Origin: Larsenimonas rhizosphaerae
GTDB taxonomy: Bacteria; Pseudomonadota; Gammaproteobacteria; Pseudomonadales; Halomonadaceae
NCBI RefSeq assembly: GCF_023700005.1
Contig: NZ_JAMLJK010000001.1
Span: 1,203,366-1,267,365 of the forward strand
DNA: 64,000 nucleotides
Reading direction: 5' to 3'
Shown here: piece after piece, positions 1-32,802 of the stretch
Position numbering within the stretch: the first letter of the stretch is position 1
Layout: each line of letters begins with the position of its first letter
Notes under the pieces: model-generated
What the model was told of the DNA's origin: nothing
The model's input: the letters and a program-made list of their open reading frames with translations, nothing else
Database searches by the model: none
Position numbers and translations under genes: made by a program

Positions 1-700
1 CATCATCCACGTCCGGCAGTGAACTTGAGGGACTGCGTTCCTGGGCCTTCTGAAGTAGATCGTCGAAGCGTGACAGGCCGGAGGCTGCGCGGGTTTTCAT
101 GGGGCCGGGAGAGAGGGCATGAACACGGATTCCCTTCGGCCCGAGTTCGGCTGCCATGTAGCGTGTTGCCGCTTCAAGGGCCGCCTTGACCGGCCCCATG
201 ACGTGATAGCCTTCCACCACCTTCTGGCTGCCGTGGTACGTCATGGTGAACAGCGTACCGCCCTCGGTCATCAACGGTTCGGCGAGCCGGCACAGGGCCA
301 GAAACGAATGACATGACACCGTCATGGCGTCATTGAACCCCTCGCGGGAGCAGTCAACCAGCCGGCCCTTGAGGTCTTCGGCCGGGGCGTAGGCAATCGA
401 GTGCAGGACAAAATCGAGCCGTCCCCAGCGGTCGGTGAGTGTCTCGAACAGGGTTTCCATCTGGTGCTCATCACGCACATTCAGCGGCATCAGCAGCTCG
501 CAGCCAACCTGATCCGCCAGAGGGGCAACATGGGGCAGCGCATGGTCATCGAGGTAGGTAATGGCCAGCTCCGCGCCCAGCTGATGGCAGGCACGGGCAC
601 ATCCCCAGGCAATGGAGCGGTCATTGGCGATGCCGATGATCAGACCGCGCTTGCCCTCAAGGGAGAGCGAGGCAGGCAGGGGGCGTGGGTCAGTGGTCAT
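1..700 (-). CDS. fabI: FabI-like enoyl-[acyl-carrier-protein] reductase (partial, C-terminus off the left edge)
   Basis: Short-chain dehydrogenase of the divergent FabI type, which reduces enoyl-ACP with NAD(P)H in fatty-acid elongation. The first 233 codons are visible. The N-terminus has the FabI nucleotide motif GIANDRSIAWG instead of the classical TGxxxGxG, and the catalytic Tyr-x6-Lys is seen as YHVMGPVK, followed by a FabI-like segment ending HALSPGPMKT. The start at 698-700 is preceded by AAGGAA 8 bases upstream. It lies 12 bp after ackA and is the last visible gene of the DUF3141-pta-ackA-fabI operon, so it may be an accessory FabI paralogue rather than the housekeeping one. The C-terminal end is missing because the window stops. 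Confidence 0.85.
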   Translation of the reverse strand, partial: MTTDPRPLPASLSLEGKRGLIIGIANDRSIAWGCARACHQLGAELAITYLDDHALPHVAPLADQVGCELLMPLNVRDEHQMETLFETLTDRWGRLDFVLHSIAYAPAEDLKGRLVDCSREGFNDAMTVSCHSFLALCRLAEPLMTEGGTLFTMTYHGSQKVVEGYHVMGPVKAALEAATRYMAAELGPKGIRVHALSPGPMKTRAASGLSRFDDLLQKAQERSPSSSLPDVDD

Positions 701-712
701 GGCGCGTTCCTT

Positions 713-1906
713 TTAATGGGGCGTGGACAGGAAGGTGCGAACGTGTTCTGCAATCATGCGCGCCTCATCCGTGGGGATAACATGAACGGGGCGTTCGCTG
801 TGCGGTGCTGAAATGCAGGAGGCGTGGCGCTGATTGGCTGTGTCATCCAGGGCAATGCCCAACCAGCCAAGCCAGGTGCAGGTGAGGCGGCGCAGTCTGG
901 CACTGTGTTCACCAATACCGGCGGTAAATACGATGCCATCCAGCCCGCCCAGGGCCGTAGCCAGCTCGCTGATTCCCATCGCTACGCGGCGAGCCAGATA
1001 GGCCAGCGCGAAATCGGCACGGGCATCGGATTTGGCGGACAGCACCTGTACATCACTGCTGATGCCGGAAAGGGCCTTGAGGCCGCACTCATGATAGAGC
1101 AGCTGTTCCATGGCCTCCGGGCCCAGGCGTTTTTGCTGCATCAGGTAAAGCAGGACGCCGGCATCGAGTCGGCCGGGGCGGCTTCCCATTGGCAGACCAT
1201 CAAGCGCCGTAAAGCCCATGGAGGAATCAATGCTCCTGCCCTTGTGCAGGGCGCACAGCGAGCAGCCATTGCCTAAATGGGCCACCACCACACGGCCCTG
1301 TGCGATCTCCGGGGCGACGGTCGGGAGCTGACCGGCAATGTATTCGTAGGACAGACCATGAAACCCGTAGCGTCGCACGCCTTCCTCGTGCAGCGCTTCC
1401 GGAATGGGCAGCCGCTCTACCATGGGCTCATGATCATGATGAAAGGCGGTGTCGAAACAGCCTATCTGGGGCAGGTCGGGTCGCCGGCGCAGGATCGAGC
1501 GAACCGGGGCAAGATTGGCCGGCTGATGCAGGGGGGCCAGCGGAGTGAGGGCGGCAAGCTGTTCGAGTACATGGGTATCCAGTATTACCGGCCTGTCAAA
1601 CGAGGGCCCCCCGTGAACAATGCGGTGCCCGACCGCCACTACCCGGCCGGGCAGGAGCGGTGTCAGTTGATCGGCCAGCAGCGTCTGGGCCTGGTCTGCG
1701 TCCAGGCTCTGGTGGGCCATGGGCAACACATCAATCAGGGTGTTGTCGTCACCATCACTGATGACCAGGTGCGGGTGAACGGTACCAATCCCGGAAAAGG
1801 TGCCTCGTATGCAGGTCGACAGCGCCGGATCATTGGCATCAAATCCCTCGACCTTGAGACTGGATGATCCGGCATTGATGACCAGCAGAAGATCACGCTC
1901 TGCCAT
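713..1906 (-). CDS. ackA: Acetate/propionate kinase
   Basis: Acetokinase-family enzyme that interconverts acyl phosphate plus ADP with carboxylate plus ATP in the cytosol. The 397-residue length is normal. Family landmarks are the N-terminal NAGSSS, GHRIVHGG, FHGLSYEYI, HLGNGCS, SSMGFTALDGLPMGSR and the C-terminal FTAGIGEHSARLR. The ATG at 1904-1906 is one base from the pta stop, and the AAGGAGC ribosome site lies inside the end of pta, so translation is coupled. Pairing with a phosphotransacetylase predicts acyl-CoA to acyl-phosphate to ATP plus acid. Whether the preferred substrate is acetate, propionate or butyrate cannot be read from the sequence. Confidence 0.93.
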   Translation of the reverse strand: MAERDLLLVINAGSSSLKVEGFDANDPALSTCIRGTFSGIGTVHPHLVISDGDDNTLIDVLPMAHQSLDADQAQTLLADQLTPLLPGRVVAVGHRIVHGGPSFDRPVILDTHVLEQLAALTPLAPLHQPANLAPVRSILRRRPDLPQIGCFDTAFHHDHEPMVERLPIPEALHEEGVRRYGFHGLSYEYIAGQLPTVAPEIAQGRVVVAHLGNGCSLCALHKGRSIDSSMGFTALDGLPMGSRPGRLDAGVLLYLMQQKRLGPEAMEQLLYHECGLKALSGISSDVQVLSAKSDARADFALAYLARRVAMGISELATALGGLDGIVFTAGIGEHSARLRRLTCTWLGWLGIALDDTANQRHASCISAPHSERPVHVIPTDEARMIAEHVRTFLSTPH

Positions 1907-23650: not shown

Positions 23651-25634
23651 ACAGGGCGAGCTGGGACTGGCAGCGCCGGCAGCGCTTCCCGCTGTCGACC
23701 AGGTGCTGACGTTACTCGAGCAGTGGAGCGAGCGAGACTGGATTCGGCCCATTGATCTGTACTTTGCTCGTTTCATTGCCGAGCAGGGGGAGCAGGATAG
23801 CCTCGTTGTATTGCTGGCCATGCTGGTCAGTCATCAGTCGGGTCGCGGCCATATCTGTCTGGTATTGAAGCGTTTCCAGGCCTCGCCGTGTGCCTATGTA
23901 CAGTTGCCTCCGGAAGTGGATGAGGGCGGCGACCTGACATGCCTGCTGTCAGTGCTGGCCCAGGAGCCTCTATCGGAGCGGCTGCTCGGCTCATCAATGG
24001 TCTCGGCCGGCGACGGTAGTGCACCTATGGTGCTGGATCGGGAGCGCCTTTATCTACGCCGCTTCTGGCGCAGCGAATGCCGGGTGGCCTCGAAAATACG
24101 GGCGCGGATGGGCCCGTTGTTACCCGCTGACCAGAAGACGGTCGCGCGGCTTGATGTTCTGTTTCCTGCCGGCCCGGAGCAGCCGGACTGGCAGCGTCTG
24201 GCATGTGCGCTGGCACTGCGACAGCGATTCTGCGTTATTTCCGGCGGACCCGGGACGGGCAAGACCACTACGGTGGCCAGGTTGCTGGCGTTGCTGCAGG
24301 AGCAGGCGCTGGAAAATGACGGGATACCGCTGGTGATCGAAATGGCCGCGCCGACCGGCAAGGCGGCGGCACGACTGACCGAATCGATCAGTGGCGCACT
24401 GGCCCATCTGCCCGTAAGTGAGGCCGTGAAGGCTGCCCTTCCACGGGAGGCTGTGACCCTGCATCGGTTGCTGGGCGCGCGCCCGGATACACGACGCTTT
24501 CGCTTCGGTGAACGGATGCCCCTGCCACTGGATGTTCTGCTGGTGGATGAGGCTTCCATGATCGACCTGGAGCTGATGGCCGGTTTGATGGAGGCCCTGC
24601 CGGCTCGTGCGCGCCTGATTCTGCTGGGAGATCGCGATCAGCTGGCCTCGGTGGAGGCGGGCGCTATTCTCGGGGATGTCTGCGAAGGTGCCTGGCCCCC
24701 GGCGTTCAGTACCGATGTGGCTGACTGGCTGACTCAGGCCTCGTCATATCCGCTTGCCCCTTCTACCACGGAACGCTGTATTGCCGATCACGTTGTGGTG
24801 CTGCAAAAGAGCTACCGATTTGATGCCGGCAGCGGCATCGGCGCTCTATCGAGGATGATCAATCAACGTGATCCGGCGGGGGCAAGGCAGGTGCTGGAAG
24901 CCGGTTATACCGATATTGCACTCGAGCCCCTGGGCGAGATTCGTGCTCGCTGGCATATCAGCCGTGCCGTTGAGGGGTATCGTGCCTGCCTTGAACAGGT
25001 ACATCAGCAGGCCGCGCCGGAAGACGTACTCGGGGCCTTTCAGCAATTTCGGGTATTGTGTGCGCTGCGCAGGGGCGAATGGGGCGTCGATGCCTTGAAC
25101 CAGGCGATTGCTACGGCGCTTTTCAACCGTGGGCTGATCAGTGATGATCATGGCTGGTACGCCGGTCGCCCGGTCATGGTGACAAGCAATGACCGCCAGT
25201 TGAATCTTTATAATGGCGATATCGGGATAGCGCTGCCGGACGCCGCTGCCGGAGGGAGACTGAGGGTGTTTTTTGATCAGGGAGAGCGCGTTCGGGCGGT
25301 TCTGCCCGGCCGACTGACCAGTGTTGAAACGGCTTATGCCATGACGGTTCATAAATCCCAGGGGTCGGAGTTTTCATCAGTGTTGTTTATCGTGCCGGAT
25401 CGTCACTCCCCATTGCTTACCCGTGAGCTTTTATATACGGCGGTCACGCGTGCAAAGACGCGCTGCGATATCGCAGCGCGTCGTCCCGAGGTTTTTTTTG
25501 AAGCCATGCGGCACCGTGTTGAACGATCTTCCGGTTTACAGTGCCGCCTTGACGTCAAGGATGGGTCAGGCTCCGCGTCCGATATGGGTGGGCTAACCAG
25601 CACGGGGCCGGGTCAGAATGGAGGACATCAGTGA
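23640..25634 (+). CDS. recD: Exodeoxyribonuclease V subunit alpha
   Basis: RecD (664 residues), the 5'-3' SF1B helicase subunit. Walker A GGPGTGKTTT lies near residue 203, Walker B is LLVDEASMIDLELM, followed by LLGDRDQLASVEAGA and the C-terminal TVHKSQGSEF and YTAVTRAKTRCDI. The start at 23640 gives an 11-bp overlap with recB, the usual coupling; an earlier frame start inside recB is not needed. The last 42 bp overlap the 3' end of the convergent holin-like gene, and the tail after residue 640 is not conserved. Confidence 0.96.
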   Translation: MVHEQGELGLAAPAALPAVDQVLTLLEQWSERDWIRPIDLYFARFIAEQGEQDSLVVLLAMLVSHQSGRGHICLVLKRFQASPCAYVQLPPEVDEGGDLTCLLSVLAQEPLSERLLGSSMVSAGDGSAPMVLDRERLYLRRFWRSECRVASKIRARMGPLLPADQKTVARLDVLFPAGPEQPDWQRLACALALRQRFCVISGGPGTGKTTTVARLLALLQEQALENDGIPLVIEMAAPTGKAAARLTESISGALAHLPVSEAVKAALPREAVTLHRLLGARPDTRRFRFGERMPLPLDVLLVDEASMIDLELMAGLMEALPARARLILLGDRDQLASVEAGAILGDVCEGAWPPAFSTDVADWLTQASSYPLAPSTTERCIADHVVVLQKSYRFDAGSGIGALSRMINQRDPAGARQVLEAGYTDIALEPLGEIRARWHISRAVEGYRACLEQVHQQAAPEDVLGAFQQFRVLCALRRGEWGVDALNQAIATALFNRGLISDDHGWYAGRPVMVTSNDRQLNLYNGDIGIALPDAAAGGRLRVFFDQGERVRAVLPGRLTSVETAYAMTVHKSQGSEFSSVLFIVPDRHSPLLTRELLYTAVTRAKTRCDIAARRPEVFFEAMRHRVERSSGLQCRLDVKDGSGSASDMGGLTSTGPGQNGGHQ

Positions 25635-26171
25635 ATGAGGCCGTTGTCCCATTGAGGCCATGCGCTCTACACTGACCTGACGGATATTGACGCCAAGCAC
25701 TGCACCCATGGACACGATCAGCATGACGATACCGTCCATGACCTCGGCCAGTTGCGAAGGATCAAGAATGATCGCAACACCGAGCATGACGCTGATCCAC
25801 CCGAAGGACAGGGCCATGGTCCAGCCAATGGCCGAGCGCCAGCGGCTTTTGAACCCGTCTGTACTGGACAGTTCAGACTGCATGGTGGTGTTGATGCTCT
25901 TCAGCTGGTCAGTCCGTGCGCCATGCTCTATTTCCTGGCGTCGTGTGTCGTGCTCCAGCGTGGATTGCTTGAGTTGGGTTTCAAGTTCAGCCAGCTTGAC
26001 GGCTGCTGCCGGATCGGTCTTCAGGGCTTCATGAATGGCATCCGGGGTGTTTTCTACTCCCAGGATTCGTGAAACAGCCTGACCTACCAGGTGGCCGGCA
26101 GGCCCTGCAAGTGCCTGTCCCACGGTTGGGGCCATGCTTGCAACAGTGTTGGCAATAGTGGTCCAGTTCAT
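25593..26171 (-). CDS. Holin of the 3TM family (phage-type)
   Basis: 192-residue protein resembling the 3TM_holin family of phage holins, inner-membrane proteins that form lysis holes. The N-terminal half is amphipathic (APTVGQALAGPAGHLVG) with a charged coiled-coil-like stretch (KLAELETQLKQSTLEHDTRRQEIE). The C-terminal half has a conserved RWRSAIGWT before two hydrophobic spans. The start at 26169-26171 has AAGGAG 8 bases upstream. It overlaps the upstream 96-codon gene by ATGA. No endolysin, terminase or structural phage gene is nearby, so this is either a phage remnant or a domesticated membrane protein. Confidence 0.75.
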   Translation of the reverse strand: MNWTTIANTVASMAPTVGQALAGPAGHLVGQAVSRILGVENTPDAIHEALKTDPAAAVKLAELETQLKQSTLEHDTRRQEIEHGARTDQLKSINTTMQSELSSTDGFKSRWRSAIGWTMALSFGWISVMLGVAIILDPSQLAEVMDGIVMLIVSMGAVLGVNIRQVSVERMASMGQRPHSLMSSILTRPRAG

Positions 26172-26458
26172 GGGGTGGTCTCCTTGGTCAGGGTGGATTG
26201 CATGGACATCAAATCCATCAAAAGTTGTCGATATTGACGCTCTTCTCGCTCTGTTGCGGTCATCCAGGCATGTTGGGATACGGCGCCGGGATGCGGGGGG
26301 GTTGCATTTCCTTGCAGGCTCAGTCGCTCGTCGTGTCGAATCACCATGTCGTGGGTCTCCATCAGCGTCTGTCCAGCCCAACCGATAACTCCTGTCATCA
26401 GTACTGCCAAAGCGGAGGAGATTTGTGGGTAGCCAAATGAGGCGGTTCCAGTTGTCAT
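26168..26458 (-). CDS. Small one-span membrane protein paired with the holin
   Basis: 96-residue protein, no family name recognised. It has an N-terminal hydrophobic segment (SALAVLMTGVIGWAG), then a hydrophilic, charged region ending in a helical stretch (EREERQYRQLLMDLM). The start at 26456-26458 has GGAG nine bases upstream, and the stop overlaps the holin start by ATGA. A short membrane-anchored, coiled-coil-tailed protein beside a holin is the arrangement of phage lysis accessory proteins (antiholin or spanin-like). This role is inferred from context only. Confidence 0.65.
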   Translation of the reverse strand: MTTGTASFGYPQISSALAVLMTGVIGWAGQTLMETHDMVIRHDERLSLQGNATPPHPGAVSQHAWMTATEREERQYRQLLMDLMSMQSTLTKETTP

Positions 26459-26670: not shown

Positions 26671-27516
26671 ATGACACAACAGATAATTGACGGGGATGCC
26701 TGGCAGGTAATTCTTGCAGTACGTGATCGTGACAATACGGCCTGTCAGCGCTCGGAAATCCGGTTTGATGAGGGGGTCATCAGACTGCAGAGAGACGGCG
26801 CATGGAGCAGTGATACACTGCTTCCGGCGCAGACAGTGCGTCTGTTTGATCTGTATCTGCCCCTGGCGATGGCCGGGCCGATGGTCATCGGACAGCTGGG
26901 ACAGAGCCTGGATGGGCGTATTGCCACGGTTACAGGCGCCTCACGCTATGTGACCGGGCAGGAAGGGCTGGTTCATCTTCATCGACTGCGCGCGTTGGTG
27001 GATGCGGTCATCGTTGGTGCTGGCACGGCCTCGGCCGATGACCCCCGATTGACGGTTCGGCTGGTGGCCGGTCGTCATCCGTGCCGTGTGGTACTGGACC
27101 CGCGTCACCGGGTTGACTCGAATCTGGCGCTGTTCACGGATAATGCGGCCCCTACGTTGCATCTGGTGAATGAACCTGCATCAGAACCACCTTCGCCTCA
27201 TGTTGACTATCTGGATATTTCACAATGTCAGGCGTCAGATGGCAGTCGACCGGAACAGATCCTTGCGTTGCTGGCCGCCAGAGGACTGTCACGGGTACTG
27301 GTCGAGGGCGGAGGGCTTACCGTGTCACGATTTCTGGAGGCAGGCTGCCTTGATCGTCTGCATGTCATGGTGGCACCCATGTTGATCGGTTCCGGACGAC
27401 CGGCATTTACCCTGCCTGATATCGAGGAGCTGGATCAGGCACTGAGGCCGGAATGCCGTACATGGACGATGGGATCAGATGTCCTGTTCGACTGCCGCTT
27501 CCCCGGCTCTGTGTGA
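26671..27516 (+). CDS. Stand-alone RibD C-terminal-type reductase
   Basis: 281-residue protein with a RibD_C (bacterial bifunctional deaminase-reductase C-terminal / DHFR-like) domain from about residue 75. Visible are GQLGQSLDGRIA, the conserved substrate segment RALVDAVIVGAGTASADDPRLTVR, VVLDPRHRV, and VLVEGGGLTVSRF with MLIGSGRPAF. The deaminase domain of true RibD is absent; instead there is an unrelated 70-residue N-terminal extension. Family chemistry is NADPH reduction of a ribosylamino-pyrimidine to the ribityl form. It converges on the glycosylation operon, with a 42-bp tail overlap. The start has GGAG five bases upstream. Its relation to riboflavin synthesis is doubtful given the neighbours. 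Confidence 0.82.
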   Translation: MTQQIIDGDAWQVILAVRDRDNTACQRSEIRFDEGVIRLQRDGAWSSDTLLPAQTVRLFDLYLPLAMAGPMVIGQLGQSLDGRIATVTGASRYVTGQEGLVHLHRLRALVDAVIVGAGTASADDPRLTVRLVAGRHPCRVVLDPRHRVDSNLALFTDNAAPTLHLVNEPASEPPSPHVDYLDISQCQASDGSRPEQILALLAARGLSRVLVEGGGLTVSRFLEAGCLDRLHVMVAPMLIGSGRPAFTLPDIEELDQALRPECRTWTMGSDVLFDCRFPGSV

Positions 27517-28431
27517 AGAGGTCTGCTGGTGTGGTGGCGTGTTCTGCCGTCGCATCAGCATCACAATGGCACCAGGCAGGCTTGAAACCAGCACGGTGGC
27601 ACCATAGGCGACTGAAATTGCTACGCCTTCGCTGGAGGAGAGGCCGGCCGAGGCCCATATCAGCGCCGCCGCTCCTTCCCGAACTCCCCACCCCCCGATC
27701 GACAAGGGCAGTGCCATCGCCATCAGCACCGGTGGAATCAGTGCCAGCAGGGTCAGACTGTCGAGCGTGCTGCCCAAGGCACGTGCGCAGCAGGCATAAG
27801 CACCAATATAGGTCGCTACGATTACCAGCGAGCCGCTCAACTGTTTAATCCAGAGGTGGCTGCCGCACAGGCTTAAGGCGATGTGATGGCCGAAGCGCGC
27901 CAGCGCCTTTCTCGTCGATGTGCGAAAAAGAAGCAGGCTTCCGATACCTGCCAGCACTGCCAGAAGAATCTGACCGGTGGTGCCTGACGGTTCACTGCGA
28001 TGAAATGAAGTCAGCACGACAGGATGGGTGGCCAGCATGATGCCGGCAATCAGCAGCAGAGCCAGTTGGCCTGATGCTCGTTCGATCATGACGGCATGGA
28101 AGGCGCGGGTTCGCGAGGCCTGTCGGTGACCGTGTCGCCAGGCGCGCGCCACGTCGCCACCCACTCCACCGGGTAACAGCTGATTGAGAAAGGTGGCGAT
28201 GTAATATTCGCTGACGGCCCGACGCAGCGATAGTGACAGTCCGAGGGCATGGGTCGTCAGCTGCCAGCGCCAGGCCGACAGAAAGACCTGCGGCAGGGTC
28301 AGCAGCAGAGCCAGTAACAGCCAGCCTGGAGAGGGGGCCGACAGGGACTGACGTATATGTGATATATCCAGCGTATACGCCATGATGCCAAGGCACAGGG
28401 CCATGAACGCAAGACGCAGCCCCGTGTGCAT
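27475..28431 (-). CDS. UPF0104 / lysylphosphatidylglycerol-synthase-TM-like membrane protein
   Basis: 318-residue integral membrane protein with about eight hydrophobic segments and the family hallmark LPGGVGGDVARAWR in the first third. The family includes the flippase half of MprF and proteins thought to flip or transfer lipid-linked glycans. The ATG at 28429-28431 overlaps the methyltransferase stop (TAATG), so it is the last gene of the five-gene operon. The cytosolic tail (RRQNTPPHQQTSSH) overlaps the 3' end of the convergent RibD-like gene. A role in moving the operon's product across the inner membrane is inferred. Confidence 0.83.
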   Translation of the reverse strand: MHTGLRLAFMALCLGIMAYTLDISHIRQSLSAPSPGWLLLALLLTLPQVFLSAWRWQLTTHALGLSLSLRRAVSEYYIATFLNQLLPGGVGGDVARAWRHGHRQASRTRAFHAVMIERASGQLALLLIAGIMLATHPVVLTSFHRSEPSGTTGQILLAVLAGIGSLLLFRTSTRKALARFGHHIALSLCGSHLWIKQLSGSLVIVATYIGAYACCARALGSTLDSLTLLALIPPVLMAMALPLSIGGWGVREGAAALIWASAGLSSSEGVAISVAYGATVLVSSLPGAIVMLMRRQNTPPHQQTSSHRAGEAAVEQDI

Positions 28432-29321
28432 TACAGGGCCTGATGCCACTGGTCTGGCACTGCCAATACATCCTGATGCCCGACATTGATGGTGATTTTT
28501 CCCTGATTAACCCCTTCAAGCCGTGCCGCGAGCCATGCTCGAAGTGCATCGTGCTGCGAAGCAGGCACCACCTCAAGCGCGGCATCAACCCGCTCACTCA
28601 GCAGACGCTCGGCCAGGGCGAGGTCGCCAGTGCCCGAGGCGCGAGACAGCTGCCAGTCAGCGGGAGCGCAATGTACCTGATACCCTGCATCGGCCAGCAA
28701 TTCAGCCGCAATACGCCAGCCTTCGCTGCCACAGGCTGTACCCAGTCCGCGTTCCTGTTGCTGGTGATGGTTGATGGCCTCTTCCATCAACATATCGAGC
28801 CGCTTCAGTGCCGGATTTCCGTCAGGGTCCTCGATAAAAAAGCGCCCATCAACGCTCATGGTCATCATGACTACCATGCAGTGACTTGAGCAGTGCGCTA
28901 CAAGTGCCTCAAGCCAGGGGCGGGATACCAGGTCCAGTAGCGCTGAGGCGGTCACCAGTGTGGTGGAGGGCGGAACAAGTTCTGCCGGGTGGGCAATGCT
29001 GCTCAAGCGGCTGGAAAGCTCAAGCTGCCCTGATGACAGGGTGGGAGCACTGACCATGGCTTCATCAAGCAGAATCGGGTCATGATCAATCAGCTGCCAG
29101 TGCTGATCAAACGGCAGGCGAGGTGCCAGATAGCGGCAGTTGCTGCCTCGACCACACCCCAGATCGACAACAGCCAGGCGCTTGTGCGCCTGGCTGTTCA
29201 GTGCATCAATCAATGGTGCGAGCAATGACGGATGGCGTGACCGGTGGTCGACAGGTTCCCTCAGCGTCAGCCAGTCCGATGCGAACTGGCTGCCCGGTGC
29301 CGGTGAAGCGGCCGCTGTCAT
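28431..29321 (-). CDS. Class I SAM-dependent methyltransferase
   Basis: 296-residue protein with the SAM-binding motif I VVDLGCGRGSN near residue 60, an acidic end of strand 2 (LIDHDPI), and the motif-II-like LVTASALLDLVSRPWLEALV. The substrate domain is not recognised. It overlaps the upstream glycosyltransferase by ATGA and the downstream flippase-like gene by TAATG, so all three are coupled. The acceptor is unknown; the context suggests the sugar or heterocycle made by the neighbours. Confidence 0.85.
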   Translation of the reverse strand: MTAAASPAPGSQFASDWLTLREPVDHRSRHPSLLAPLIDALNSQAHKRLAVVDLGCGRGSNCRYLAPRLPFDQHWQLIDHDPILLDEAMVSAPTLSSGQLELSSRLSSIAHPAELVPPSTTLVTASALLDLVSRPWLEALVAHCSSHCMVVMMTMSVDGRFFIEDPDGNPALKRLDMLMEEAINHHQQQERGLGTACGSEGWRIAAELLADAGYQVHCAPADWQLSRASGTGDLALAERLLSERVDAALEVVPASQHDALRAWLAARLEGVNQGKITINVGHQDVLAVPDQWHQAL

Positions 29322-30367
29322 GCCGGCTGCTCATGGCGTACCGCCTTCATGAAGCGATACCCGGTATCCGTCCAGAGCCTCAGGCTTGAACGGGCTTCCA
29401 GCGCCCCTTGGGCGAGCTGCTGACGGGCCTTGTTGTCCTGCAGCAGATGCCTGAGGGTGTTCGACAGGGCGTTGGTATCACCGGGAGGCAGAGTAATGCC
29501 TGCATTACGGGGCAGGGTTTCCATCAGTGCGCCACCGTTCATGGTCACAACCGGCACGCCGTAGGCGATGGCTTCGCTGATGACCATGCCGTAGCTCTCG
29601 AAGTAAGAGGGCAGTACGAACAGGCTGGCGCGCTGATACATGGATTGCAGCTGCTCGCCCTGATACTCGCCATGCAGTTCAATACGTTCTTCCAGTCCGT
29701 GGGCCTTGATGCGGGCGCGCACGTCATCGACGTATTCCGGATCTCGTTCCAGATCACCGACGATATCGCATTTCCAGCCAAGATCAGACAGCTCAGCGAG
29801 CGCATCGACCAGCAATGCCTGCCCCTTGCGCGGGATGACCGTGGCCACGCACAGCAGCCGACGTGGATGGAGATCCGGTTGCGAGGCCGCTACCTTGTCG
29901 ACGCCGGGCTCAACGACACGAATGGTATCGGGTTCAATGCCATAGTCCGCCAGGCGCCGTGCCATGAAACGACTGGTAACAATGATGTCATCCATGGCCG
30001 CTAAAGTACGCTTTTCCTGTGCCATGTACTGCTGGCGTGTCTGATCGGGCAGACCGGTCTCGTCAGCAATCGGAAGGTGGACCACGGCGGTCAGGTGCAG
30101 CCGGTGCTGATGGGCCTCGACAATATCGGGCAGGTTGGCGATGGCCAGTCCGTCACAAATGACCCGGGACTGGTCGGGTAGAGCGCTCAACGCATGGTCA
30201 AGTGCCCTGCGTGCCGTGTCATCACCCTGTGGAAACACGCCTTCCAGTTCAATGACGTTGACATCGATATCATGACGACGAAGGGTGTTGATCACGCGCG
30301 CATTGTAGATATAGCCACCGGTCAATTGATTGAGCCGGCCGGCGGAAACGAAATGGAATGTATCCAT
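29318..30367 (-). CDS. GT4-family glycosyltransferase
   Basis: 349-residue GT-B glycosyltransferase of family 4. The N-terminal acceptor domain begins with HFVSAGRLNQLTGGYIYNARV (a Gly-rich loop binding the donor phosphate), the C-terminal domain has CVATVIPRKGQALLVDALA, and the donor-binding E-x7-E motif is in FESYGMVISEAIAYGVPVV. No membrane segment is seen, so it is cytosolic or peripheral. Its ribosome site (AAGGAGAA) lies in the end of the PTPS-like gene, 2 bp upstream. Donor and acceptor are unknown. Confidence 0.88.
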   Translation of the reverse strand: MDTFHFVSAGRLNQLTGGYIYNARVINTLRRHDIDVNVIELEGVFPQGDDTARRALDHALSALPDQSRVICDGLAIANLPDIVEAHQHRLHLTAVVHLPIADETGLPDQTRQQYMAQEKRTLAAMDDIIVTSRFMARRLADYGIEPDTIRVVEPGVDKVAASQPDLHPRRLLCVATVIPRKGQALLVDALAELSDLGWKCDIVGDLERDPEYVDDVRARIKAHGLEERIELHGEYQGEQLQSMYQRASLFVLPSYFESYGMVISEAIAYGVPVVTMNGGALMETLPRNAGITLPPGDTNALSNTLRHLLQDNKARQQLAQGALEARSSLRLWTDTGYRFMKAVRHEQPA

Positions 30368-30369
30368 GC

Positions 30370-30780
30370 TTAGTGATTCTCCTTCAGTTCGCCTTCGTAG
30401 CTTGCCCAGGCGATGTGCGATTCGTGCAGTGTGACTGCCATGGCAGTCAGTGCCTTGCCGGTGTCTCCCAGCTTCCCTTCATTGATAGCATGAGCGAGGC
30501 GGTCAAAGACAGCCCGCGCCATGAATTCAGTGGTGGTATTTCGTCCCTTGAACGCCTTGAGGTCATCAAGGTTTTCGAAATTGAAGGCGCTCAGTACGTC
30601 AGACAGCGCCTGGCTGGCCAGGCCGATGTCCACGATCAGGTCCTCATCGTCCAGCTCGGGGCGCTTGAATGTCACGTCAACGATATAGGTTGCACCGTGC
30701 ATCTTCTGGGCCGGGCCAAAGGTATCACCGTTGAAACTGTGGGCGATCATGATGTGGTCGCGAACGGTCAGGCTATACAT
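30370..30780 (-). CDS. 6-pyruvoyltetrahydropterin synthase/QueD homologue with altered active site
   Basis: 136-residue tunnelling-fold protein of the PTPS/QueD family. Family marks are IAHSF near residue 13, MHGATY at 27-32, FKGRNTTTEFMA and the C-terminal LHESHIAW with the conserved Glu. Two key positions differ from QueD: the zinc-binding His-Gly-His reads His28-Gly-Ala30, and the catalytic Cys four residues before that His is Ala24. So the zinc site keeps only two of three ligands (His14, His28), though His9 may substitute. The chemistry may differ from that of QueD or PTPS. AGGA lies 8 bases before the start. It is the second gene of the operon. Confidence 0.85.
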   Translation of the reverse strand: MYSLTVRDHIMIAHSFNGDTFGPAQKMHGATYIVDVTFKRPELDDEDLIVDIGLASQALSDVLSAFNFENLDDLKAFKGRNTTTEFMARAVFDRLAHAINEGKLGDTGKALTAMAVTLHESHIAWASYEGELKENH

Positions 30781-30822
30781 GGTGTTATCCTGAAAAGTGA
30801 AAAGGGTGTAACGCGAGTGTTG

Positions 30823-31791
30823 TCAGCAGTACGACACGCGATGACACAGTGTATCCGGGTTCTTCACGATGTCGGCGTAGTGTTCAGGCAGGTGCTCGAA
30901 CGGACTTTCTCCGTTGATCAGGGTGTCGAAGCGCTCATCGCACAGTAACGCCATTGCCTTTTCCAGGCGGCGTCGATAGTTCCAGCGCGGTTGCTGATCA
31001 GGAGCAATGGTTCCAACCTGACTTGAGCGAAGTGTCAGGCGCCGGGAATGAAACGTCTGACCAAGCATCAGTGGCACTGTGGTAGAGCCGTACCAGCTCA
31101 TTTCAATGATGCGGCCTTCCTGGCCTGCCAGTGTCAGCGCCGTTTCAAGCCCTTTCGGGTGTCCACTGGCGTGAATGATGACATCGCGCTCCCTCGATGC
31201 CTCTTCGGCGGACAGGCGATGATCAAGCCCCAGGCGGGAGAGTGTCGTTGTTCTCGAGGCGGCCGGGTCGATGACTTCGACGTCGGTGCCGACAATGCCC
31301 TTGCAGAGCGAGGCGACCAGCAGGCCAACCACGCCGGCACCGATGATCGTTATTCGATCGCCTATGCGTGGTGCTGCGTCCCAGACACCGTTCAGAGCCG
31401 TTTCCATGTTCGCTGCAAGCACGGCACGTGCCGGGGGGAGGCCCGCCGGAAGTGGCGTTATTGCATCTTCCGGTACCAGAAAGCAGTCCTGATGGGGGTG
31501 AAGGCAAAATACCATCTGTCCGGCGAGCGGCCCGGTTTCGGCCCTGCCCACGGCGCTGTAGCCATACTTTACCGGCCATGGAAATTCGCCGGCCTGAAAG
31601 GGAGCGCGCATGCGTTCCCTTTCGCTCTCCGGAATGCGTCCTTCAAAAACCAGTCGCTCGGTCCCCCGGCTGATGCCGCTGTAATGGGTCGTGACCAGTA
31701 CCGACTGATCAGTGGCAGCGTGGAGGGGCGTGTTACGCAACTCGCCACGCTGGCAGTCAGTGATCCAGAATGCTCGGGAAGTACGGCGCAC
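30823..31791 (-). CDS. BchC-like MDR-family dehydrogenase (no catalytic Cys)
   Basis: 322-residue medium-chain dehydrogenase/reductase. The N-terminal domain has YSGISRGTER, the form seen in BchC-like dehydrogenases, where the catalytic zinc Cys of classical alcohol dehydrogenases is missing. The Rossmann domain has IIGAGVVGLLVA and an acidic VIDPAA end of strand 2, pointing to NAD. The GTG at 31789-31791 is chosen because AAGGAG lies 8 bases upstream; a GTG at 31815 would place that site inside the gene. First gene of the five-gene operon, 42 bp ahead of the PTPS homologue. Substrate unknown; an alcohol/ketone on the pathway intermediate is likely. Confidence 0.85.
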   Translation of the reverse strand: MRRTSRAFWITDCQRGELRNTPLHAATDQSVLVTTHYSGISRGTERLVFEGRIPESERERMRAPFQAGEFPWPVKYGYSAVGRAETGPLAGQMVFCLHPHQDCFLVPEDAITPLPAGLPPARAVLAANMETALNGVWDAAPRIGDRITIIGAGVVGLLVASLCKGIVGTDVEVIDPAASRTTTLSRLGLDHRLSAEEASRERDVIIHASGHPKGLETALTLAGQEGRIIEMSWYGSTTVPLMLGQTFHSRRLTLRSSQVGTIAPDQQPRWNYRRRLEKAMALLCDERFDTLINGESPFEHLPEHYADIVKNPDTLCHRVSYC

Positions 31792-32040
31792 TATGCCTGC
31801 TCCTTGTACGTTCACATGGCCATAGCGCCAATACGCTACAAATATTGTACTGCTGGCTGCTCAGTTAAGCTGATTTAGCCTTGATGTCAATGGTGCGTGC
31901 CACCGCAGGGCCGTACCACAAGGTCTGACAAGTCGATGTAAGCTATAGTCAAATGAGTCCAGGCCTGTTTGCGAAAGTGGCTTGAGTACGCCTTTGAAGT
32001 TATAAAATAGTTATACAGATGTGGGTCAGGGAGTGCCTCG

Positions 32041-32802
32041 ATGGAACAGCCGCTTTGGTGGAATGACATGAAGGCTCGTGCACCTGGCGGGGAATGGGTG
32101 CTGCTGGAGCTTTTTGTCGGACTCTGGGGGTTACAGTGGCTGGCAAGTCACAATCCCGGGTTGAGCCACTCAGTGCCGGGCGTGGGTCAGACCGCGTTTG
32201 CAAGCTACTGCATTTGCGGTTTTCTGGTCTGGACAGCCTTGCGCCGATATGGGCAGCGCCATCTGGGATGGGCCAATGCCGTCACACTGCTTCGTTGTGT
32301 CATTGTCTGCTATCTGGCAGGCATGGTGATGTATGCCGAACATATTCGCTCGGATATGCTGGCCTTTCTGCTTCTGGCACTGGTGGCGCTATCGCTTGAT
32401 GGCGTTGATGGCTGGACCGCACGACGCTTTCAGTGTGATTCATCGGTAGGCGCGCGCTTTGATATGGAACTGGATGCCGGGTTCATTCTGCTTCTGAGCA
32501 TTGCGGTATGGCAACTGGAGCAGGTGGGGGCATGGATCATGCTGACAGGCCTTATGCGGTATCTGTTTATTGCGGCTGGTGCATGCTGGCCTGCCTTGAA
32601 GGCGCCCCTGTTTCCCTCTCGCCGACGCAAGGTGGTATGTGTGGTACAGGTGGTGGCATTGATGATGTGTCTGCTGCCGTGGGTAGGGCCCTTGGCTGCT
32701 TCTATCATTGGTGCAGTGGCACTGGTGGCGTTGATCCATTCCTTTGGAGTAGATACGTTGTGGCTCTACAATACTGCCCGTCATCGCGATGTACTGTCCT
32801 GA
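32041..32802 (+). CDS. CDP-alcohol phosphatidyltransferase family protein
   Basis: 253-residue inner-membrane enzyme with about six hydrophobic spans. The CDP-alcohol phosphotransferase signature D-x2-D-G-x2-A-R-x8-G-x3-D-x3-D is visible as DGVDGWTARR followed by GARFDMELDAG. Members transfer a phospho-alcohol from CDP-linked donors to an alcohol such as glycerol phosphate, inositol phosphate or serine. CAGGGAG lies 8 bases before the ATG. It is divergent from the five-gene operon across about 250 bp and probably belongs to the same pathway, for instance joining the product to a lipid. The actual substrates cannot be read off. Confidence 0.88.
   Translation: MEQPLWWNDMKARAPGGEWVLLELFVGLWGLQWLASHNPGLSHSVPGVGQTAFASYCICGFLVWTALRRYGQRHLGWANAVTLLRCVIVCYLAGMVMYAEHIRSDMLAFLLLALVALSLDGVDGWTARRFQCDSSVGARFDMELDAGFILLLSIAVWQLEQVGAWIMLTGLMRYLFIAAGACWPALKAPLFPSRRRKVVCVVQVVALMMCLLPWVGPLAASIIGAVALVALIHSFGVDTLWLYNTARHRDVLS

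Follow-up and report, generated by a model that had tools for sequence, protein, structure and literature searches.

The PTPS family contains subfamilies PTPS-I, -II and -III, which are defined by the motifs CxxxHGH, CxxxxxHGH and ExxHGH (PMC5041015). PTPS-IV was set out in the AGeNNT study of 2017 as cluster 62 with 561 sequences, marked by the signature FGPAQ and having PF00925 (GTP cyclohydrolase II, GCHII) and PF01872 (RibD_C) as neighbours (PMC5445326); the passages of that paper available to us name only these two neighbours and propose no pathway, and those of PMC5041015 mention, as unpublished work, a connection of PTPS-IV with archaeal F420. Here we describe a seven-gene locus with a PTPS-IV gene at positions 26671–32802 of a 64,000-nt stretch (the window) of the 3.29 Mb genome of Larsenimonas rhizosphaerae, which together with its relatives shows the same signature and neighbourhood and does not suggest F420. 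The closest solved relative of its PTPS protein is SCO6650 of Streptomyces coelicolor (PDB 3d7j, 1.3e-50 over residues 1–130), deposited under the title 'uncharacterized protein' and to our knowledge assigned to no pathway. Also related is the early riboflavin route of archaea and fungi (GTP cyclohydrolase III (GCHIII), ArfB and a reductase; RIB7), together with bacterial BrbF, as it includes the same three entry reactions that we infer here, among them a reduction without prior deamination; that route feeds riboflavin, whereas at the present loci no deaminase, lumazine synthase or riboflavin synthase is annotated alongside. Methyl or sugar groups are also borne by other metabolites derived from GTP cyclohydrolase products, namely toxoflavin, vicine and bacterial pterin glycosides, and we know of none that uses the combination of genes described below.

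The locus consists of a tight minus-strand operon encoding a BchC-like MDR dehydrogenase (ZDH), the PTPS protein, a GT4 glycosyltransferase, a methyltransferase (MT) and a UPF0104 membrane protein, onto which a stand-alone RibD_C-type reductase converges and from which a CDP-alcohol phosphatidyltransferase diverges (Table 1). All seven open reading frames (ORFs) are intact, without an internal stop in any of them. An earlier note, made from the sequence alone, had listed these genes with their orientation and with junctions of a 42-bp gap, a 2-bp gap, ATGA and TAATG; every gene is present and open, and orientation and junctions are exact. The dehydrogenase most likely starts at the GTG at 31791, which has AAGGAG upstream. 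Compared with two Kushneria relatives (L016, L027) the window proteins are 38–77% identical, with PTPS being the most conserved. The arrangement is not due to chance, since it is found again in Pseudomonadota, actinobacteria and haloarchaea, and most likely this widespread set of genes, shared by bacteria and some archaea, turns a vitamin-B2-type, GTP-derived precursor into a sugar-bearing, methylated compound.

Using PTPS as query we found relatives in 12 of 274 genomes of the class (E ≤ 1e-10) and in 27 of 398 Pseudomonadota genomes from 20 of 213 genera (E ≤ 1e-12), the window genome being counted in both times, and in the phylum of a Micromonospora locus 20 of 296 genomes matched (nine at E ≤ 2e-24, 11 more weakly). 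At least 582 relatives were confirmed among named genomes, and 24 of 72,556 plasmid records matched, including records from Streptomyces, rhizobia, Methylosinus and Haloarcula. From these we compiled two collections, which overlap in some genomes (e.g. G613 and L016). The first holds 96 loci, namely the best 80 of the named-genome relatives and 16 plasmid regions, and leans to Halomonadaceae; the second holds 36 loci, which are all matching Pseudomonadota loci of the class and phylum samples except the window, and is less biased although several close relatives remain. Local searches of the 96 loci found PTPS in 96, ZDH in 94, GT4 in 91 and RibD_C in 82, followed by CDP-alcohol transferase (80), UPF0104 (74), MT as its own ORF (60), GCHII (58), creatininase (55), FkbM (33), an MdoH-like protein (31), a sulfatase-like protein (18) and cytochrome b561 (4). 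The corresponding numbers for the 36 loci are ZDH 35, GT4 35, MT 33, RibD_C 29, CDP-alcohol transferase 20, UPF0104 17, GCHII 13, MdoH 12, creatininase 8, FkbM 8, cytochrome b 7 and sulfatase-like 5, and in 33 of them each ZDH lies immediately upstream and GT4 immediately downstream of PTPS. The earlier note had staked its reading on the genes occurring together in other genomes, and they do, mostly in the same order. The window locus is a reduced version without a linked cyclohydrolase, so that of the two published PTPS-IV neighbours it has RibD_C itself and GCHII only in its relatives; the Kushneria loci L016, L017 and L031 are similar, and L027 has both GCHII and creatininase.

Outside the Pseudomonadota, 14 actinobacterial loci contain GT4 (14), ZDH (13) and RibD_C (8). 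This count omits L212, the weakest of 15 fetched regions, with GCHII and RibD_C several kb off and neither ZDH nor GT4, and four of the 20 matching genomes (G938, G917, G756, G821). Six distant loci (L206–L211), in which PTPS is only 30–35% identical, retain the order RibD_C-ZDH-PTPS-GT4, and therefore the core looks older than the accessory genes. For haloarchaea three of the four plasmid matches were read (H23 was left out). Two of the distant actinobacterial clusters (L206:12018-14092, L209:5738-7661) extend into genes for a PHP-domain protein, an AlaX-like protein related to AlaRS, and DUF192. A halomonad-like cluster with a PTPS 70% identical to that of the window occurs in a record labelled Natrialbaceae archaeon (L037), probably a misbinned contig.

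The PTPS protein of the window reads FGPAQKMHGA and thus carries the PTPS-IV signature, and the motifs of PTPS-I/QueD, PTPS-II and PTPS-III are all absent from it; its QueD score is 40.7 against a cut-off of 89.25. Where zinc enzymes have HGH, the window protein and most bacterial homologues have HGA and three haloarchaeal proteins have HSH. His14, His28, Asp51, Glu85 and Glu120 are invariant across 28 PTPS sequences, and by the general pattern of the family Glu120 is taken to keep the 2-amino-4-oxo ring in place. As this residue is invariant while HGH is replaced and the Cys motifs are missing, the PTPS-IV fold is expected to have retained the binding of such a ring but probably not the known PTPS, QueD or folate chemistry. 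The same genome encodes a second PTPS gene outside the window (G000:C1:1288269-1288997; L002, L003), a single frame of 280 aa with two tandem PTPS-domain matches.

The substrate of the pathway can be narrowed down by the RibD_C reductase. Its family profile, searched against solved structures, found 6p8c (6.6e-49) and the archaeal 2azn (2.2e-42) first and bacterial RibD next. According to the available text of PMC3631187, the residue that selects for the deaminated substrate is Lys in bacterial RibD, Thr in ScRIB7 and Asn in archaea; Lys pairs with AROPP and Thr or Asn with DAROPP, and ScRIB7 prefers DAROPP as wild type but AROPP about threefold as T35K mutant. The window protein has Gln at this position, and the alignment column of 23 cluster RibD_C proteins contains Gln in 17, His in four, Ser in two (both divergent actinobacterial proteins) and Lys in none. 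A simple pattern search over 75 loci, from which five of 80 matches lying outside the motif had been removed (L024, L025, L028, L045, L090), gave Gln 69, His 4 and Ser 2. As a control, the separate RibD of the window genome carries Lys. The window protein thus lacks both marks of a bifunctional RibD, the N-terminal deaminase domain and the Lys, and as a stand-alone reductase with a non-Lys selector it would be of the RIB7/RED type, with Gln where the characterised enzymes have Thr or Asn. No deaminase is annotated across 15 annotated plasmid regions, the gene table of which is incomplete.

Linked genes of the relatives lead to the same precursor. In Haloarcula L110, one of the three haloarchaeal loci read, a GCHIII (PF05165, 3.4e-81) lies beside ZDH-PTPS-MT. 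GCHIII is unrelated to GCHII and makes the formyl precursor of the same pyrimidine, and BrbF, a bacterial formamidase of the creatininase family, deformylates the GCHIII-type intermediate to DARoPP (2,5-diamino-6-ribosylamino-4(3H)-pyrimidinone 5'-phosphate), as stated in the accessible part of PMC9478397. The creatininase-family gene linked in relatives of the window may be such a formamidase, its family match being to creatininase only. Taken together, the linked GCHII or GCHIII, the linked creatininase and the RibD_C profile with its missing selector Lys point to a product of GTP cyclohydrolase II/III as the entry, and not to a cyclohydrolase I product. As the cluster RibD_C lacks the Lys that the genome's own RibD has, the entry probably leads from GTP to 2,5-diamino-6-ribosylaminopyrimidinone phosphate and on to its ribityl form, kept non-deaminated.

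Of the later enzymes, the window ZDH scored 62.8 bits with the BchC equivalog TIGR01202 (cut-off 291) and so falls outside that group. It reads SGISRGTE, with Ser where zinc-type enzymes carry the catalytic Cys, the one of the N-terminal GxCGTD-like motif of zinc MDR alcohol dehydrogenases, and by its sequence belongs to the MDR proteins that lack this Cys. The GT4 family profile has as nearest solved structures Tll1590 (6kih, for which the PDB gives that name only) and the MshA and PimB types. Among the 96 loci, 32 ORFs (one a fragment, one cut) join GT4 and MT in a single frame, and the fusion is seen again in one distant actinobacterial locus. The AlphaFold2 model of MT has a mean pLDDT of 92.9, and its fold matches are class I methyltransferases, with 3mgg in first place (3e-12).

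With somewhat better than even confidence we therefore propose a separate, dedicated pathway, which leaves riboflavin synthesis at its first intermediate and ends in a glycosylated, methylated compound. As suggested by sequence and linkage, GTP would first be opened to DARoPP, in relatives by the linked GCHII or by GCHIII and formamidase, with the housekeeping RibA presumably doing this in the window organism, and the stand-alone RibD_C would then reduce ribosyl to ribityl on the non-deaminated compound in a RIB7-like manner. From family membership and linkage, the zinc-less MDR dehydrogenase and PTPS-IV, the conserved Glu of which can hold a 2-amino-4-oxo-pyrimidine, may remodel the compound, perhaps to a pterin-like ring, before GT4 would add a sugar and the methyltransferase might cap sugar or base. 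In many lineages the linked CDP-alcohol transferase could finally join the product to a lipid or phospho-alcohol, with UPF0104 moving it across the membrane. The earlier note had proposed a GTP-derived head group that is glycosylated and methylated, for which the linked GCHII/III, the RibD_C residue pattern and the GT4-MT fusions speak; its 'pyrimidine or pterin-like' head group holds as GTP-derived and can be sharpened to a non-deaminated 2-amino-4-oxo-pyrimidine.

Several observations weigh against this pathway. RibD_C was not found in the actinobacterial loci L198–L201 and L203, which resemble the Streptomyces locus L097, nor in L097 itself; L169 is without ZDH and RibD_C, L163 and L100 are without GT4, and in L158, L160 and L103 GT4 is placed apart. 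In two Streptomyces plasmids (L098, L099) PTPS-IV is solitary beside MBL-fold, cupin or MEKHLA genes. Among 15 aligned linked GCHII copies 14 keep the Tyr expected in complete GCHII enzymes and one has Met, as in a GTP cyclohydrolase of Streptomyces that reportedly gives the formyl intermediate, so the formamidase should mostly not be needed. As a search of the window genome found no creatininase and no cyclohydrolase is linked at the window locus, its first step would be borrowed from elsewhere in the genome, where two GCHII-domain matches occur, one a canonical RibA and one a RibBA-type ORF with a degenerate-looking GCHII part. The profile searches of GT4 and of the CDP-alcohol transferase fix neither donor nor acceptor, and MT gave weak profile matches and only generic class I matches in the fold search. 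Finally, the CDP-alcohol transferase and UPF0104 are both missing in 16 of the 36 loci, and outside that set UPF0104 occurs with no CDP-alcohol gene found in reach in L087 and likewise in L205, the contig of which is cut.

The two membrane genes bear on where the product ends up. The motif D120-x2-DG-x2-AR-x8-G-x3-D-x3-D is invariant in all 17 aligned sequences including the window and two haloarchaeal proteins, and corresponds to DxxDGxxAR...G...D...D, which we take to be the CDP-alcohol phosphatidyltransferase motif. Both genes occur together in 17 of the 36 loci, the CDP-alcohol gene without UPF0104 in three and UPF0104 without it in none (Fisher p 1.3e-7). The earlier note's attachment to, or transport across, the membrane gains from this dependence and loses from the loci lacking both genes; gene linkage makes membrane attachment plausible. 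MdoH or cytochrome b561 was found in four of 20 loci with the CDP-alcohol module vs nine of 16 without it (p 0.04). For the sulfatase-like protein of some loci the profile found no PDB match by sequence, and its model (mean pLDDT 73.4, moderate) has as best fold matches LtaP, an alkaline-phosphatase-superfamily protein and LtaS, then EptC and GacH, and enzymes of this kind move phospho-head groups. Tentatively, the product could be a glycosylated, methylated ribityl-aminopyrimidine or reduced pterin, lipid-anchored via the CDP-alcohol enzyme through a phosphatidyl-type bond and flipped outward, which would be a new class of membrane molecule common to bacteria and haloarchaea; in some lineages its transfer by an LtaS-like enzyme or a tie to cytochrome b561 would hint that this surface compound is redox-active or absorbs light. 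A soluble or secreted pyrimidine or pterin glycoside, with the CDP-alcohol transferase and UPF0104 serving a separate envelope function, has a modest chance as well: besides the loci lacking both genes, no membrane gene was detected beside RibD_C-ZDH-PTPS-GT4 in L206–L211, where distant homologues could escape our queries. It fits less well with UPF0104 never occurring alone in the 36 loci, with the pair in L198–L203 and with a CDP-alcohol gene annotated in all three haloarchaeal loci read.

Auxiliary riboflavin supply, e.g. for flavin secretion, in which GCHII, formamidase and RibD_C would feed the normal pathway and flavins would be what the remaining gene products act on, appears unlikely to us. 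Three linked enzyme families do belong to early riboflavin synthesis, and in S. meliloti it is flavin secretion, and not growth, that depends on RibBA (PMC9478397, available part), but the cluster RibD_C lacks the selector Lys, RibD deaminase, RibB, RibH and RibE are not annotated in the 15 plasmid regions with their incomplete gene table, and we set this explanation aside because the window genome has a separate Lys-bearing RibD-type ORF, a RibBA-type ORF and RibA elsewhere. Still less probable is an envelope glycan locus, osmoregulated-glucan-like or teichoic-like, with PTPS and RibD_C being incidental: an MdoH-like glucosyltransferase, FkbM and an LtaS-like gene are found in a good part of the loci, but PTPS-ZDH-GT4-MT and RibD_C are the most constant genes, MdoH, FkbM and sulfatase-like genes are far rarer in the 36 loci, and some MdoH matches, located at the outer edges of Marinobacter loci, could be neighbours without a relation to the cluster. 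That a divergent PTPS serves queuosine, folate or biopterin synthesis, as family membership and the public annotation as 6-carboxytetrahydropterin synthase and queuosine suggest, is very improbable; this reading was rejected on the absent PTPS motifs, and the low QueD score and the lack of any annotated que or fol gene in the same plasmid regions (gene table incomplete) also speak against it.

Table 1. Genes and residues of the locus, with positions in the 64,000-nt window.
Feature	Position	Strand	Basis
RibD_C-type reductase, stand-alone, 281 aa	26671..27516	+	PF01872 9.4e-40, sole Pfam match; no deaminase domain matched
Gln75 at the place of BsRibG Lys151 / EcRibD Lys152 (deaminated-substrate selector)	26893..26895	+	alignment column; PMC3631187 (available text)
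Tail-to-tail overlap of 42 bp, 3' ends of RibD_C and UPF0104	27475..27516	.	ORF coordinates
UPF0104 / LPG_synthase_TM flippase-like membrane protein	27475..28449, or ATG start 28431	-	PF03706 3.6e-45
Class I SAM-dependent methyltransferase, 296 aa	28431..29321	-	PF13649 4.7e-5, under curated cut-off
GT4 glycosyltransferase, 349 aa	29318..30367	-	Glycos_transf_1 PF00534 2.7e-30
PTPS-IV type T-fold protein, 136 aa	30370..30780	-	PF01242 2.1e-23
His28-Gly29-Ala30 replacing HGH; no Cys of QueD/PTPS motifs	30691..30699	-	alignment
FGPAQ signature, residues 21-25	30706..30720	-	published PTPS-IV mark (PMC5445326, available passages)
BchC-like MDR dehydrogenase, 322 aa	30823..31791	-	Pfam family match 1.1e-6, under curated cut-off
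CDP-alcohol phosphatidyltransferase, divergent gene, 253 aa	32041..32802	+	PF01066 1.5e-15

The overlap between UPF0104 and RibD_C is short in the window. Of 64 loci with the two genes tail to tail, 29 have a UPF0104 ORF without its stop, which reads on in phase across the whole or the greater part of the RibD_C antisense strand (e.g. L038:12395-14272 on the plus strand vs L038:13346-14185 on the minus strand). In 28 of these loci (the codon table omits L093) RibD_C uses TTA/CTA for none of 1069 Leu codons vs 13–18% in neighbouring genes and TCA for five of 207 Ser (TCN) codons vs 16–23%, with other A-ending codons being normal. For 30 Halomonas-type loci chosen by name, without the frameshifted record L064, the RibD_C value for such Leu and Ser codons is six of 1614 vs 11–16%, and in the sister genera, whose UPF0104 ORF has no such extension, the RibD_C value is low too, though less so (13 of 731, 1.8%, vs 3.2–4.9%). 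Conservation of the antisense residues barely exceeds that in control genes (0.065 vs 0.050–0.062 over a null), and a Pfam search of the extended UPF0104 tail gave no match in three proteins. Stops antisense to RibD_C thus seem to be selected against. Elsewhere in the window, a protein with a GTA-type three-TM holin domain (25593-26381, minus strand; PF11351, 1.1e-9) lies between a RecB/RecD-like pair, named from ORF reading only, and this locus, and an ARAGORN tRNA call with a stop-reading anticodon (tta) at 680-767 (plus strand) is likely a false positive.

In the open-licence PMC literature we recognised no description of this pathway, and a paper elsewhere is possible. The earlier note's term 'uncharacterised' is therefore apt for function in that literature and too broad for the linkage of PTPS, GCHII and RibD_C, already printed in 2017 (PMC5445326, passages available); new relative to the papers available are the wider gene set, the proposed substrate and the CDP-alcohol/UPF0104 module. 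The gene order is largely preserved from Pseudomonadota to actinobacteria and haloarchaea, and what such a set makes is something useful; with the non-deaminated ribosyl/ribityl-aminopyrimidine phosphate a testable entry metabolite is named. If the proposed pathway is true, the PTPS-IV family would gain a function, as would SCO6650, the structure of which is solved, and many 'QueD' and 'zinc-binding dehydrogenase' labels would be corrected.

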